From Desulfoluna limicola (GTDB lineage Bacteria > Desulfobacterota > Desulfobacteria > Desulfobacterales > Desulfolunaceae): a stretch of DNA of 64,000 nt. Shown piece by piece: positions 29,756 to 35,970 of this stretch. The position numbers and the translations under genes were made by a program. Where the stretch lies: NCBI RefSeq assembly GCF_021654575.1, contig NZ_AP024488.1, positions 1,984,001-2,048,000 on the forward strand, written 5' to 3'. The notes under the pieces are model-generated. The model did not search any database. It worked only from the letters and a program-made list of their open reading frames with translations, and was not told the origin of the DNA. How positions within the stretch are numbered: position 1 is the first letter of the stretch; every line of letters starts with the position of its first letter.

Positions 29756-30265
29756 GGGAGTGAGGGGTGATTGGTGAAAAGAAAGGGCGTGCCTCCGGCG
29801 GCAAGGTGAGCCACCTCGAAAGCTGGTTTGCGAATGCGATTCGGGTGATATATTTCAATCCCTGTCGCATTCGCATTCGCGCGACCAGTGAGGATATGCA
29901 TGGGGTTCCACAAGCGCAGAAGGTGTGGGTGATCCGATTTCACAATAGCCTGCCTCACAACTTTTTGTGAGTGGAATTCAATCGACGGACTCGGCATCAT
30001 ACACTTTGGTGGTGGGCCCACCGGTTACGACCTTCACGTGTCATGGGTTCCCCCCCCAGGGGAAACCACCCAACGCAAAACGGGCCGTGGATGATCTTCC
30101 CGATCATCCACGGCCCGTTTATTTTTTAATAACCTAAGCTCCCACCAAGCAACTTAAACCATGCTTCAGCCTCAACCACGGGCGCAGCCCGTCAGCGAAT
30201 GTGATCGACCTGAGGAACGAAGGTCGGGAGCATTCGCATAATGGGGTGCAGGGGATCATCCCCTG
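29756..30265. other. Spacer between convergent genes: repeats and terminator
   Basis: 29791-29830 is a hairpin module (GCCTCCGGCGGCAAGGTGAG, with the G-T form of the stem). 29835-29880 has GCGAATGCGATT...CGCATTCGC. 30175-30245 is an inverted loop-hairpin copy (ACGGGCGCAGCCCGT, GACCTGAGGAACGAAGGTC). 30248-30267 can form GCAGGGGATGATCCCCTGC, directly at the Hsp70 stop codon. No gene. Confidence 0.65.
30077..30128. terminator. Strong bidirectional terminator
   Basis: Perfect stem of at least 16 bp (CGGGCCGTGGATGATC with GATCATCCACGGCCCG), flanked by AAAA and TTTATTTTTT, between the convergent acyl-CoA synthetase and Hsp70 genes. Confidence 0.9.
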
Positions 30266-33040
30266 CTAATCATGCAGCACAATCCCTGTGGGCAATGCCT
30301 CGCCGAAGATCACTTTTTCGTCTCCGGCGGAGATGGGCACCACCTCAAGAAGAGGTTTCAGGTTTTTTTTGCCGGCGCCGAGGTCGCGGGCATGTGTGAT
30401 GACCTTTTCGAGCTGCTCATCGGAGAGGTCGCGTATGCGGTCACCGGTTTTGCGACCCATGATGACCAGGGCATTGATAACGGCTTTGGGATCGTTCCAT
30501 TTGCCGTTCAGGAGCTTTTCGATCCACTTCCAGGCGTCGGCGGGGGCCACCACACGATCCACGGAGCCGTAGAGGGGCTCGCGCTGGCCGATGCGGGAGA
30601 GGGCCCAGATCATCTGGGAGGGCGACTTTTTGGGCGAGAGCTCTTTGACGAGCTGGTTGCCCAAGCGCACCTTGTCTTTGGTGATGAGGCGCTCCATGTT
30701 GGCCAGGGCCATCCAGAGTTCCACCTGCTCCTGGGGCGTCATCTTCACGCCATTTCCGCGGGTCGGAAAAACCAGGGGCGAGATCTCCTGGAAGAACTGG
30801 CGCTGCTGTCCGGGGTTGAGGCCTGCGGCGAGGCGTCGCCAGAGGATCCACCACTCGCTGCGCACCTGGTTGTTCTTGTCAAAGGTGGGGCCGCCTCGAA
30901 AGAGTTTCCACACCTTTTTGATGCGCTGCTCGTCCATGCCGTGGCCGCTGCCGGGACGCAGGCAGTAACCGGTAAGGTTAAGCCACCGAGCTTCGAATTC
31001 TGCGGCGCGTTCGCGGGCTTTTTTCTCGTCAAGCAGGGTATCGGAGAGGTCCCGGATAAACGAGAGGGGCCATTTGTTCTTCTGGGTGTCCACCGCGGTG
31101 GAGAGGGCTTTCACCACCCCGGAGAGCCCAGCCTTGTCACCGGCAAAGGTCTCTTTTACCACGGTGCGGGCAGCCTCGGTGAGGGTGTCGTCCAGCACCT
31201 CGCCTTCGGACACGGCCATGGAGTCGACCTCACGCCTGAGCTGAAAGTTAAGGCGCCAGGTGTGATCACTGATAAGGGACCGGCATCCGATGACGAGGGT
31301 TCCCACCTCCGTGTATTCCGCCTGAAGGTGAACGGGAATGGTCTCTGCGTTGCCCTTCTTGCCGTATTTGATGACCGAGGCCATGGGGGGCAGTTCGGTC
31401 AAGGTGTCATCAATGGTAATCACATCCCCTGCCCTGTCGCCGGAACGAAAGCTGGAGCTGTAGACGGGAAACTCCGCAGGCCGGTTGGCGATGACGGAAA
31501 AATCCTTCTGCGTCAGCTCAATGCGCGCGCCTTCGTCCAGGCCGCGCTCCACGATGCAGACAGCCTTCTTCGCGTCCCCGTTGGTGGACCCCACGCCAAG
31601 GTAATAGCTTCGAGGGCTGCCACTGCCCACACGCACGCCTTTGCCGATCTTGGCCAGGCCGTAATAGGAAGCACCAAGGGCCACGGCAAGATCTGGGTCG
31701 GGGTTGTCCATCTCCCTCGGAAACGAGGCGTCGGGTTCGTTAAACCAGTGCCGGACGGCCCCTTTGATCTTGCGGCGAATCACGGTGGGCTTTAAGGAGC
31801 CACCGTTGAACAGGATATGGTCGGGGGCGTGGTTTGTGCCGAGAAGGGTGGCGATGGTCTCTTTGTGATGTTCGAGAAACCAGCCGATGTGGCGGGTAAT
31901 GGCAGGCTCCTGCTCGTAGGGGAGCCCAAATTCACTGATGCCCTTGCGCCGTGATTTCTCCCGGGTCTCTTCTTTGGTAACGTCGGGAAAAAAGCCGTCC
32001 AGGACGATTTCCGCCACCATCTCTTTGGTGAGATTGGCAGAAAGGGTGCCGCCGATGAGGCTGCTCCCGGAGCCGGTCATGATGATCCGCTCCAGCTCCT
32101 GGCCTTCCCCCAGGATCTTCTCCTTGGCTTTCCGGGACAGGTGGCAGAGGGTCTTCCACTTGTCCGCGGAGAGGGTCTCGCTCTTGCCTTTAAAGAGAGA
32201 CTCCGCTTTGCGGGCCAGGGCCAGGTCGATGTTGTCCCCGCCGAGGATGAGATGGTCCCCAACAGCAAGACGCTCGAACCGGGGCGTTCCGTCACTCTCC
32301 CGAAGGGAGATGAGGGTGAAGTCGGTGGTGCCGCCACCAACGTCGCAGACGAGAATCAACTCACCGGGTTTTACGTGCTCTTCCCAGCTCTTCTCATGGC
32401 GGATCAGCCAGCTGTAGAAAGCGGCCAGGGGCTCTTCCAAAAGGGTGACGTTCTTGAGGCCTGCAAGGGCTGCGGCCTCCACAGTGAGGTCACGGGCCAC
32501 CTCGTCAAAGGAGGCAGGGACCGTGACCACCACGAACTGGTTTTCCAGGAAGGCGCCCTCGTCGTCGCCGCCCATCTCTTTGTTCCACGCTTTCTTGAGG
32601 TGCTCAAGATAGAAAGCAGTGGCCTCCACGGGGGAGACCTTGCCCACATCGGCACCGGACCCCCAGGGCAATATCTTGGCTTTCCGGTCCGCCTTGTCGT
32701 GGCAGAGCCAGCTCTTGGCCGAGACCACCAGGCGCGAGGGGACCTTGCTCCCGTGTTCCCGGGCGAAGATGCCGGCAAAGCGTTTTTCCATGGGATTCCA
32801 CGGCTGAATCACCGACTCATCGGGAATGTCATAGGCCCCCGGAATGTAGAGAAAGGAAGGGAGCACCGACATGGGCGACACCTCCCCTTCTCGGGTAAGC
32901 TGGGGCACGCGGAACAATTGAATGTTCTTGCGCCCCTTCGCCGTCTCGGGGTTTTCAAGATCCACGTAAGAGATCGCTGAGTTGGTTGTCCCCAGGTCGA
33001 TCCCGATGATGTATCGCAGTGCTTCAGTATCCCGCATCAT
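30266..33040 (-). CDS. Long Hsp70-family protein with C-terminal extension (DUF3731-like)
   Basis: 924 residues, far longer than DnaK (about 640). The ATPase domain is intact: phosphate-1 GIDLGTTNSAISYVD, phosphate-2 LVCDVGGGTTDFTLIS and adenosine motif ILFNGGSLKPTVIRR. LLEEPLAAFYSW replaces the DnaK hinge text. After about residue 590 there is no normal DnaK substrate-binding lid; instead a region of about 330 residues (GYCLRPGSGHGMDEQRIKKV; WILWRRLAAGLNPGQQRQFF; MIWALSRIGQREPLYGSVDR) that I match to DUF3731. The start is put at ATG 33040, overlapping the end of the upstream Hsp70 gene by 17 bases. No J-protein or GrpE is nearby. Confidence 0.87.
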   Translation of the reverse strand: MMRDTEALRYIIGIDLGTTNSAISYVDLENPETAKGRKNIQLFRVPQLTREGEVSPMSVLPSFLYIPGAYDIPDESVIQPWNPMEKRFAGIFAREHGSKVPSRLVVSAKSWLCHDKADRKAKILPWGSGADVGKVSPVEATAFYLEHLKKAWNKEMGGDDEGAFLENQFVVVTVPASFDEVARDLTVEAAALAGLKNVTLLEEPLAAFYSWLIRHEKSWEEHVKPGELILVCDVGGGTTDFTLISLRESDGTPRFERLAVGDHLILGGDNIDLALARKAESLFKGKSETLSADKWKTLCHLSRKAKEKILGEGQELERIIMTGSGSSLIGGTLSANLTKEMVAEIVLDGFFPDVTKEETREKSRRKGISEFGLPYEQEPAITRHIGWFLEHHKETIATLLGTNHAPDHILFNGGSLKPTVIRRKIKGAVRHWFNEPDASFPREMDNPDPDLAVALGASYYGLAKIGKGVRVGSGSPRSYYLGVGSTNGDAKKAVCIVERGLDEGARIELTQKDFSVIANRPAEFPVYSSSFRSGDRAGDVITIDDTLTELPPMASVIKYGKKGNAETIPVHLQAEYTEVGTLVIGCRSLISDHTWRLNFQLRREVDSMAVSEGEVLDDTLTEAARTVVKETFAGDKAGLSGVVKALSTAVDTQKNKWPLSFIRDLSDTLLDEKKARERAAEFEARWLNLTGYCLRPGSGHGMDEQRIKKVWKLFRGGPTFDKNNQVRSEWWILWRRLAAGLNPGQQRQFFQEISPLVFPTRGNGVKMTPQEQVELWMALANMERLITKDKVRLGNQLVKELSPKKSPSQMIWALSRIGQREPLYGSVDRVVAPADAWKWIEKLLNGKWNDPKAVINALVIMGRKTGDRIRDLSDEQLEKVITHARDLGAGKKNLKPLLEVVPISAGDEKVIFGEALPTGIVLHD

Positions 33041-34844
33041 CCCTCTCGCGTACGTTAAATTCGAGTTTCCATCGCTTGTCGCCCTCGGTGGCGACACACC
33101 AGAACTCCAAGGTGCCGATCTCCGTCACCTTGATCTCAAACTGAACCGGAATGGCGGTGCCCCACTCCCCTTCCAGGGTGGTCTCGATGGAGGTCAAATC
33201 CTCCATCTCATCTTCGCTCCAGGTATCGATGACATCACCGGATTCGTCATCCCGGCGCGACGGTGAGGCCATGATGTCAAAGGCCACCGGCTCGCCCACG
33301 TAGAGAACGAACTCTTCGGAGGCCACACGCTTTTCTGTGCCCTCTTCCATGCCCATGGGAGCCACACAAAGGGCCTTCATGGGAGCCGGCATGCCCGGAA
33401 TGGCCGGCATGGCCGCCTCCACCGAGACGTAGTAGGAGCGGGAAAGGCCGCCGCGGATGCGGATGCCCTTGCCCAGGCGCGCCAGGCCATAGTAGGCGGC
33501 ACCGCGGGCCACCGAAAGATCGTAATCGCCGGCTTCCACTTCGCGGACCGGGGAATCATTGCCCACCTCTTCCCGGAAATAGTCGACCACCCCCAGGATC
33601 CGTTCCCTCACGGACTCGGACTTCATGATGCCGCCGTTAAACAGAACCGCATCGGGAATGCAGGCATTCTGCCAACCATCTCCGCCCTGACGGGCCAGGA
33701 ACCATGCCATGTGCTTGGAGATGGAAGGGTCCTGCTCGTAAACAAGACCCACCTCGCGCAGACCGCTGCGGCGCCTTCGCGCCGGACGGTCTCCCACGGA
33801 ACAGAGGGGCAAAAAGCCCTCCAGGATCACCTGGTCCACCTCGGCAGCGTCAACCTCGCTCTTGAGGGTGCCGCCGATAAGCCCGGAACCGCGCCCCAGG
33901 ATGGTGACAGGCTCTGGCCCGGTTGCGTCTCCGGACAACACCTTCTCTTTCACACTTCGAATGGAGTGCCCGAGCCCTCGCATCTGCCAGTCGTCGAGCT
34001 TCTGGCCCTTGGCGTCCATCTTGGACTTCACATACCAGGCCAGGGCCAGGTCCATGTTGTCCCCGCCCACCAGAAGGTGATCGCCAACGGCAATACGCTC
34101 CAGGGCCAGCTCGCCCCCCTCTTCGGAGATGCCGATGAGGCTGAAGTCGGAGGTTCCGCCCCCGATATCGCAGACCAGCAGGGTCTCGCCCTTCTTGACC
34201 TTGGTGCGCCAGTCATCCCCCATGGACTCAATCCATGCGTACAGGGCGGCCTGGGGCTCTTCCAGAAGGGTCACGTGAAGAAGACCGGCCAACGCCGCCG
34301 CCTGAACCGTAAGCTCCCGTGCCACCGCGTCAAAGGAGGCGGGGACGGTGAGGTAAATTTCCTGATTCTCAAGGCGCTTTTCCGGATCATCGCCGGCCAT
34401 CTCGTGATTCCAGGCGTCACGCATGTGCTTCAAAATGGCAGCCGAGGCCGTCACCGAGGACATCTTCGAGACCTCATCCGGGCCTTTCCAGGGAAGGTTC
34501 TCCGCCTTTCGGTCCACCATGGTGTTGCAGAGCCAGCTCTTGGCCGAGGCAATCAGGCGCTGGGGCAGCTCCCCACCCCTCTTGCGGGCAAACTCCCCCA
34601 CCACCGACGAAGGCTCAGGATCCCAGGGAAGCGCCGTGGCCCCACGCCCCACATCGTGGGCCTCGGGCAGAAAGATAAAGGAAGGAAGCATCTCACGCTT
34701 CTCCACCACACCGGCATCCACCAGCTGGGGAATGCGGAAGAGACGTATATCCGAGGCCTCACTGGCCCCGTCTGCTGGCTTCTCGGTATAGGCCACCACA
34801 CTGTTTGTGGTGCCAAGGTCAATACCGACAATATATGAACTCAT
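33024..34844 (-). CDS. Hsp70-family protein (second divergent copy)
   Basis: 606 residues with an Hsp70 ATPase domain: GIDLGTTNSVVAYTEKP, LLVCDIGGGTSDFSLIGI and LFNGGIMKSESVRERI. It resembles the ATPase half of the long Hsp70 downstream far more than DnaK (both share AKSWLCN or AKSWLCH and VTLLEEP), so the two arose by duplication. A short beta-rich C-terminus follows (VGEPVAFDIMASPSRRD; FEIKVTEIGTLEFWCVATEG) without the DnaK lid. ATG 34844 is chosen because GGAG lies 7-8 bases upstream. It is translationally coupled to the long Hsp70 by overlap and lies 400 bases after the DUF2760 gene on the same strand. Confidence 0.88.
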   Translation of the reverse strand: MSSYIVGIDLGTTNSVVAYTEKPADGASEASDIRLFRIPQLVDAGVVEKREMLPSFIFLPEAHDVGRGATALPWDPEPSSVVGEFARKRGGELPQRLIASAKSWLCNTMVDRKAENLPWKGPDEVSKMSSVTASAAILKHMRDAWNHEMAGDDPEKRLENQEIYLTVPASFDAVARELTVQAAALAGLLHVTLLEEPQAALYAWIESMGDDWRTKVKKGETLLVCDIGGGTSDFSLIGISEEGGELALERIAVGDHLLVGGDNMDLALAWYVKSKMDAKGQKLDDWQMRGLGHSIRSVKEKVLSGDATGPEPVTILGRGSGLIGGTLKSEVDAAEVDQVILEGFLPLCSVGDRPARRRRSGLREVGLVYEQDPSISKHMAWFLARQGGDGWQNACIPDAVLFNGGIMKSESVRERILGVVDYFREEVGNDSPVREVEAGDYDLSVARGAAYYGLARLGKGIRIRGGLSRSYYVSVEAAMPAIPGMPAPMKALCVAPMGMEEGTEKRVASEEFVLYVGEPVAFDIMASPSRRDDESGDVIDTWSEDEMEDLTSIETTLEGEWGTAIPVQFEIKVTEIGTLEFWCVATEGDKRWKLEFNVRERDDAGY

Positions 34845-35244
34845 AGTTTGCTCCATATTCTTAAAAGCTGCTTTCTAAGAAAAAGCCAAAAGCGTTGCCT
34901 CCGGCGGCGAGGGTGGCGAAGCCACTGTAGCAAAATCACCTCGAAAGCAGGTTGCGAATGCTCCGAACCCTCGTTCCTCGGGTACGTCACATTCGCTGAC
35001 GGGCTGCGCCCGTGAATAACAACGTTGATTGTGCAATTTTCTCCGGCACCTTCAATGTGTAAAAACAATATCGACCTTTGGGTGGACATTGAAGCACCCA
35101 CATTGCAAGCACTTGTGACGATCCACGCGCCTCATCACCCATTGTGCGAATGCGGACGCAACAGGCTCGGCATACGACACCCCTGTCGCGTTCGCCATAT
35201 GGGGTCCAGGGGATTATCCCCTGGCCGCCGGAGGCAAAAGTCCC
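34845..35244. repeat. Composite of hairpin repeats between DUF2760 and hsp70 genes
   Basis: The block starts with GCCTCCGGCGGCGAGG (34898) and ends with GCCGCCGGAGGC (35225-35236). Inside: a GGTGGCGAAGCCAC hairpin, GCGAATG...CCCTCGTTCCTCGGG...CATTCGC (34953-34995), ACGGGCTGCGCCCGT, a GCGAATGCGGACGC... stem near 35148-35190, and GGGTCCAGGGGATTATCCCC just after the DUF2760 stop. Confidence 0.7.
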
Positions 35245-35970
35245 CTAACCCAGCTCCACCTCTGCCGGAGCCAGCACGTCGGGGTTGGACTCTTCGGAGA
35301 GGGTTGGCACTTCGGTGTTGCTGGCTTTCCAGCCTTTGTGGCGGACGGTCCCGGTGAAGGGGGGTTCGCCTGAGACGTTGCCGGTGAGGCGGATCTCTTC
35401 GGGATTGAAGCCGGCTTCGATGGTGATGGTCTCGCCTTCGGCGGTATCGACCACGGGGCCGCAGGTGACGTACTTGCCGAGGGTTTTTACGCAGTTTTCG
35501 TGGATCCCGCGTACGGCGGCGCCGATCTGGTCGTCGCTGTAGAGGGAGAGGTCTTCGTTAAAGAAGTCGATGAGGCGTCCCTCTTTCTGGAGAGCGGAAA
35601 CGAGGTGAAGAAAGGTGCGCCTTGTGTTGCGTTTCTCCACTTCCGGGTCCACCTTGGGCTCCTCTGTTTTGGGGGCGGATTCGATTGCAGGAGCCCCTGC
35701 TTTGACGTAGGTGCCTTTGATGATCATCCAGAGAAGCAAGGTAAAGAGAAGAGCCGCGCCGATGGAGGCGGGAACCACCTTGGTGGAAAAGTTATCAAAG
35801 ACAAAGGAGAAGGCTTTGATGGCCTCGGGATCTGCGGCGTCGTGAACGGCTTTCATGGCCGCCACGTTGGCACCGAAGTAAATGGCCACATCCACGACAA
35901 GAGTAAACAGCGCCATCACCAGAAAAATCCAGACAAATGACTGCTTTGAGAATGTTTTCGCGGAATCCAT
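35245..35970 (-). CDS. DUF2760 membrane protein of the Hsp70 unit
   Basis: 241 residues from ATG 35970, which has GGAGA 8 bases upstream. Two N-terminal membrane segments, FVWIFLVMALFTLVVDVAIY (about residues 10-30) and SIGAALLFTLLLWMIIKG (about 70-87), are followed by a charged linker. The cytoplasmic domain is probably DUF2760 (RRTFLHLVSALQKEGRLIDF; EDLSLYSDDQIGAAVRGIHE; YVTCGPVVDTAEGETITIEA). The same-strand arrangement with two Hsp70-family genes suggests a membrane-anchored partner of these chaperones. That link is inferred from position. No molecular function is known to me. Confidence 0.78.
   Translation of the reverse strand: MDSAKTFSKQSFVWIFLVMALFTLVVDVAIYFGANVAAMKAVHDAADPEAIKAFSFVFDNFSTKVVPASIGAALLFTLLLWMIIKGTYVKAGAPAIESAPKTEEPKVDPEVEKRNTRRTFLHLVSALQKEGRLIDFFNEDLSLYSDDQIGAAVRGIHENCVKTLGKYVTCGPVVDTAEGETITIEAGFNPEEIRLTGNVSGEPPFTGTVRHKGWKASNTEVPTLSEESNPDVLAPAEVELG

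Follow-up and report, generated by a model that had tools for sequence, protein, structure and literature searches.

A 2021 review of bacterial Hsp70 machines distinguishes three types, DnaK, HscA and HscC (PMC8215388). In DnaK, residue R167 touches the HPD motif of the J protein, and HscC has the membrane-anchored J proteins DjlB and DjlC as its partners (PMC8215388). Here we describe a locus of Desulfoluna limicola, analysed within a stretch of 64,000 nucleotides (the window; contig NZ_AP024488.1, positions 1,984,001 to 2,048,000), which encodes two divergent Hsp70-like proteins, H1 and H2, together with a DUF2760 protein. According to the open reading frame list and Pfam, the minus strand carries the three genes in the order DUF2760, H1, H2, and the reading frames of H1 and H2 share 17 bases. 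The three proteins almost certainly constitute a functional unit. The main features are the following.

35245-35970, minus strand: DUF2760 protein, 241 residues from ATG, with an N-terminal membrane hairpin and a soluble C-terminal domain
35881-35937, minus strand: hydrophobic span 1 of the DUF2760 protein, residues 12-30 (hydropathy)
35719-35775, minus strand: hydrophobic span 2 of the DUF2760 protein, residues 66-84 (hydropathy)
35254-35619, minus strand: conserved DUF2760 domain, residues 118-239, predicted cytoplasmic (Pfam and AlphaFold2, predicted local distance difference test score, pLDDT, mostly >90)
33024-34844, minus strand: H1, 606-residue Hsp70-like protein, consisting of a nucleotide-binding domain (NBD) and the beta part of a substrate-binding domain (SBD-beta) only
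33468-34844, minus strand: NBD of H1, about residues 1-459 (Pfam and alignment)
33051-33443, minus strand: SBD-beta-like domain of H1, about residues 468-598 (homology to H2)
30266-33040, minus strand: H2, 924-residue Hsp70-like protein, consisting of NBD, SBD-beta and a helical DUF3731 region
31640-33019, minus strand: NBD of H2, residues 8-467 (model and structural match)
31235-31609, minus strand: SBD-beta of H2, residues 478-602, which the model places against the NBD in the docked arrangement of ATP-bound DnaK
30305-31189, minus strand: all-helical C-terminal domain of H2, residues 618-912, about 16 helices, at the place where the Hsp70 lid would be (includes PF12531, residues 680-922)

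Like the DnaK-DnaJ-GrpE system, the module has the NBD and SBD-beta folds and the ATPase residues, but it lacks the lid and the VLLLD linker, its J-contact residues are altered, no J or GrpE gene is linked to it, and H2 carries an extra helical domain. HscC of E. coli resembles the module in being a divergent non-DnaK Hsp70, encoded near membrane-anchored partners, for which a role at the plasma membrane has been suggested (PMC8215388). It differs in that its partners are J proteins and that it retains linker and lid, whereas DUF2760 contains no J domain and the Hsp70s of the module have neither the lid nor that linker; a neighbouring J protein gene, as in the DjlB/DjlC arrangement, is not present. 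The eukaryotic Hsp110 and Grp170 proteins are, like H2, large Hsp70 relatives with an additional C-terminal part that stand beside a shorter Hsp70. Unlike these, H2 is bacterial, is widespread without a short partner and ends in DUF3731 rather than in the Hsp110 extension.

Both large proteins match the HSP70 family PF00012 (E values of 8e-17 and 2.5e-18), and NCBIfam indicates resemblance to HscA, DnaK and MreB, all below threshold. H1 aligns over its full length with residues 4-608 of H2 (42% identity over 596 residues), and residues 680-922 of H2 match PF12531 (DUF3731) with an E value of 2.8e-82 and 276.7 bits, compared with a Pfam cut-off of 25. The counterparts of the ATPase residues K70, E171, D194 and T199 of the organism's own DnaK are K102, E196, D226 and T231 in H1 and K109, E203, D233 and T238 in H2, and these positions are invariant in all 20 H1 and all 46 H2 sequences compared. 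The VLLLD interdomain linker is replaced in H1 and H2 by a sequence of the type G-x-(V/I)-R-(V/I)-x-x-G-x-x-R-(S/A)-Y-Y. An AlphaFold2 model of H2, calculated from an alignment of 46 sequences (mean pLDDT 88, predicted template modelling score 0.86), was compared with known structures using Foldseek and VIA-align; residues 8-603 resemble DnaK and BiP with Z-scores of 33-37, mostly in docked or ATP-bound states. The SBD-beta is thus present in H2 in the predicted structure, and in H1 by homology. The SBD-alpha lid is lost, as H1 stops after SBD-beta and the structural match of H2 stops at residue 603. No relative of H2 residues 612-924 was found in the PDB by sequence.

The J-protein contact site has diverged as well. 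The position equivalent to N170 of DnaK is glutamate in all 66 H1 and H2 sequences, and the position of R167 is threonine or histidine in all 20 H1 sequences and retains arginine in 6 of the 46 H2 sequences. No J domain is encoded in the 64-kb window, all five J-domain proteins of the genome being encoded elsewhere, and the GrpE gene of D. limicola is next to that of the canonical DnaK, at 5.819 Mb. Neither a J nor a GrpE family occurs among the tallied flanking genes of the relatives' loci. Judged from alignments and the H2 model, H1 and H2 appear to be Hsp70s with complete ATPase residues that have lost both lid and J site. The initial annotation, made from the sequence of the locus, had described three same-strand genes with 606- and 924-residue Hsp70s and a 17-base overlap, complete ATPase motifs, a missing lid and no accompanying DnaJ or GrpE, and in all these points it agrees with the present data.

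The co-occurrence of the genes was determined in a class sample of 170 genomes, each at least 95% complete. DUF2760 and H2 are both present in 117 of these, DUF2760 alone in 4 (several at contig ends), H2 alone in 1 and neither in 48; Fisher p-values on these counts ignore kinship and are descriptive only. A phylum sample of 247 genomes shows both in 28, DUF2760 alone in 2, H2 alone in 1 and neither in 216, the two genomes with DUF2760 alone being assemblies of 62-67% completeness. The independent occurrence that the initial annotation had named as evidence against a unit is therefore not what these genomes show. DUF2760 and H2 are also found together when far apart on the same contig or chromosome, at distances of 160 kb (G300), 170 kb (G316), 218 kb (G315), 250 kb (G161) and 1.84 Mb (G340), so hitch-hiking by linkage cannot explain their co-occurrence. 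Two kinds of split are seen, one in which DUF2760 and H1 lie away from H2 and one in which DUF2760 lies away from H1 and H2.

H1, scored at a strict threshold at which truncated copies count as absent, was found in 79 of the 170 class genomes. Every one of these contains DUF2760 and 78 contain H2, the exception being a contig-edge case. Conversely, H1 is missing in 39 of the 117 genomes that have both DUF2760 and H2. The obligate core of the unit is formed by DUF2760 and H2, and H1 is an optional add-on. The three-gene unit proposed initially thus stands as regards co-occurrence, with and without linkage, but H1 is dispensable. Since one in three genomes with the core pair has no H1, the unit cannot depend on a hetero-oligomer of both Hsp70s. 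DUF2760 and H2 without a full H1 were also observed in G204, G155, G228 and G134, in some cases with DUF2760 directly before H2.

The distribution outside these samples was derived from a scan of the genomes of 84,980 species. Among the matches listed, relatives occur in Desulfobacterota, Planctomycetota (Kuenenia), Burkholderiaceae, Lentisphaerae, Acidobacteria, Verrucomicrobia, Riflebacteria and Cloacimonadota, and among gammaproteobacteria in Chromatiaceae, Methylococcales, Vibrio and Photobacterium. The gene-neighbourhood comparison that the initial annotation had suggested gave the order DUF2760-H1-H2 in 19 of the 31 loci named, which span about ten phyla, again among the matches listed. 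The flanking genes differ from locus to locus and show no relation. A third universal partner was considered and ruled out, the immediate neighbours of diverse loci sharing no family.

Some neighbours recur locally. A gene for a HEAT-repeat protein directly follows H1 in L079 (5587-6465), L087 (6523-7407) and L108 (4783-5661), and in such loci H2 is not adjacent; it is located elsewhere in G205 and G029. The HEAT-repeat protein is a possible fourth component. Near detached H2 genes a DUF3592 gene recurs (L080, 16293-16757, with relatives in L084, L086, L088 and L090), which in L080 overlaps the H2 stop codon. Plasmid copies exist as well: a conjugative Bradyrhizobium plasmid carries the complete module, and the Thiodictyon plasmid pTs485 (L175, 1-14360) carries DUF2760 and H1, with H2 not adjacent, in the neighbourhood of anti-phage DUF1156 and phospholipase-D-like genes, VapC and a TIR protein.

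In a tree of 88 Hsp70 sequences, a single branch (Shimodaira-Hasegawa-like approximate likelihood ratio test, SH-aLRT, 99) separates H1 and H2 from 48 other Hsp70s, which were taken as a set and not typed individually; H1 and H2 do not fall within the DnaK clade. H1 forms a clade (SH-aLRT 99), and H2 is either sister to H1 or paraphyletic to it. It follows from this topology that the duplication that gave rise to H1 and H2 is older than the spread of the module over phyla.

In the DUF2760 protein, residues 118-239 match PF10816 (E value 2.7e-49, 166.5 bits; Pfam cut-off 25). Conservation in the family resides in the C-terminal 120 residues, with Q128, R132, D135, F136, D146, G150, E178, G197, G207, H211, G213, W214 and E237 invariant. 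The two-span anchor reported by the initial annotation is present in D. limicola, yet it is no family-wide feature: by hydropathy, 27 of 46 DUF2760 proteins have two spans, 10 have one, 1 has three and 8 have none. Two spans are typical of Desulfobacterota and one span of gammaproteobacteria. The DUF2760 proteins of most Burkholderiaceae, Acidobacteria and Verrucomicrobia loci contain no span, only a short amphipathic N-terminal segment; by a heuristic measure, such a short hydrophobic amphipathic segment opens most of the spanless proteins. Proximity to the membrane is therefore likely for DUF2760 in general. A Foldseek search with the whole DUF2760 model gave no match at E <0.4, and VIA-align matched mainly the helical hairpin, with no clear solved relative. 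A relationship to GrpE, for which there is a motif resemblance (FDPxx..., PAxVxV), was ruled out by a profile probability of 0.2% in hhalign.

With a probability of roughly one half, in our estimation, the module is a chaperone that is driven by ATP, needs no J protein and acts on the inner side of the membrane, where DUF2760 would serve as anchor and adaptor; H2 would be the core and H1 an optional component. In this mechanism H2, and H1 where present, would take up ATP while SBD-beta is in its docked position on the NBD, and hydrolysis would let them clamp onto exposed stretches of client proteins. The DUF2760 domain would be tethered to the cytoplasmic membrane on its inner side, whether by the hairpin, by one span only or by the amphipathic segment, and would take the place of a J protein by localising the Hsp70 and coupling it to its clients; it would probably also stimulate the Hsp70. 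The helical DUF3731 region, in place of the lid, could offer a second surface that binds a client or a partner, and H1, which is paralogous to H2 and lacks that region, would be an optional third subunit. The clients would probably be membrane or membrane-proximal proteins. Client handling, stimulation by DUF2760 and the formation of hetero-oligomers are what we infer for the module. A further step would be to rank it as a fourth class of bacterial Hsp70 machine, one that dispenses with J protein, GrpE, lid and canonical linker; DUF2760 would then act as a J protein does, by stimulating and localising the ATPase, and the helical DUF3731 domain would stand in for the lid. This step is put forward tentatively and may well not hold. 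Several observations weigh against a J-independent chaperone at the membrane. Co-occurrence speaks for a joint need and not for physical contact; the docked state of a single-chain H2 model is no proof of ATP-state behaviour; a clear membrane span is missing in some DUF2760 proteins; and despite the loss of R167 a J protein could still dock in some other way, five J proteins being available in the genome.

That last point leads to the possibility that H1 and H2 are specialised Hsp70s of ordinary mechanism, supplied with a J protein in trans, with DUF2760 as a dedicated client or adaptor. HscC, which operates with membrane-anchored DjlB and DjlC (PMC8215388), offers a precedent. We regard this as unlikely, given the glutamate at position 170 in all H1 and H2 sequences, the loss of R167 in H1 and most H2 sequences, the absence of the conserved linker and the lack of a J gene recurring nearby. 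In an arrangement resembling Hsp70 and Hsp110, one of H1 and H2 would act as chaperone and the other would exchange its nucleotide, GrpE would be unneeded and DUF2760 would be a mere anchor. The close relationship of the two sister paralogues, the large extra domain of H2 and the lack of a linked GrpE gene agree with such a pair, but the 39 of 117 genomes without H1 lack the obligate pairing of a long and a short Hsp70 within one unit, and therefore nucleotide exchange between H1 and H2 cannot be how the module works in general. The ATPase residues are, moreover, invariant in both proteins, and on balance the arrangement is distinctly unlikely.

Alternatively, the two proteins may not be chaperones, but actin-fold ATPases acting as ATP-switched membrane scaffolds or regulators, in which SBD-beta serves as a protein-docking module. 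The loss of both the canonical linker and the lid would suit this role, as would the reported regulation of the presumed V. cholerae operon by quorum sensing and in biofilm (see below). The retention of the SBD-beta fold and of NBD-SBD docking in the H2 model makes it quite improbable. Very improbable, finally, is a defence system or mobile-element cargo, to which the anti-phage and TIR genes adjoining DUF2760 and H1 on pTs485 and the full module on the conjugative Bradyrhizobium plasmid could point: PADLOC matches are weak, limited to the NBD and in no case to a full system protein, and the chromosomal flanks are devoid of defence genes.

As the initial annotation had stated, no function of the set was found in the openly searchable literature, and DUF2760 and DUF3731 are not mentioned by name in that literature (subscription papers were outside the search). 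VC1375-VC1374-VC1373 of V. cholerae, with two DnaK-related genes behind VC1375, is probably the same module; the putative assignment of VC1375 as DUF2760 derives from the layout of the Vibrio locus L105 and not from the V. cholerae genome. HapR activates the VC1375 promoter both in vivo and in vitro (PMC10328515). For VC1374, repression in biofilm (PMC9201469) and a lowered transcript in the table of a polymyxin B study (PMC5636140) are reported, and VC1373 appears in a table on riboflavin and iron (PMC5816637). These four data sets, in which the genes appear as DnaK-related protein, report regulation only and none assigns a function. No HapR-like site was found in L105, and in L107 the HapR-like pattern matched only away from the DUF2760 promoter. 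In B. pseudomallei a 65-kDa 'Hsp70 family protein', WP_004524146, is lost in a mutant of the short-chain dehydrogenase SDO (PMC7085900). Its identity as H1 is an unconfirmed lead: the forward quantitative PCR primer encodes GEHILL, a Burkholderia H1 motif, and the reverse primer is unplaced.

In D. limicola the DUF2760 and H1 genes are separated by 400 bp, unlike in many other genomes, where the DUF2760, H1 and H2 genes touch or overlap. The features of this gap are as follows.

34845-35244: gap between DUF2760 and H1, 400 bp, with inverted repeat copies and a terminator-like hairpin inside
35218-35237 (minus strand) and 34895-34914 (plus strand): repeat copies, inverted relative to each other
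34905-34885, minus strand: terminator-like hairpin

Because the gap holds inverted repeats and a terminator-like hairpin, H1 and H2 may be transcribed separately from DUF2760 in this genome. The repeat is a short interspersed element, TTGCCTCCGGCGGCCAGGGG, of which eight copies including variants are present in the window (0.02 expected), two of them inside the gap between DUF2760 and H1. Its 17-base core occurs at about 388 sites in the genome with up to one mismatch, compared with 0 for the reversed control. Just downstream of H2 lies a strong hairpin (30078-30120) of 19 pairs followed by a T run in the plus-strand reading. As its stem ends in AAA/TTT, it may be a bidirectional terminator. 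An Rfam search of the region found no family.

The module represents a further, apparently ancient type of Hsp70 that many phyla possess; its anatomy is distinct and its dedicated partner is not a J protein. It provides a natural test of which of the parts J protein, exchange factor, linker and lid an ATP-driven chaperone can do without, and DUF2760 together with the DUF3731 Hsp70 is the pair for a first study.

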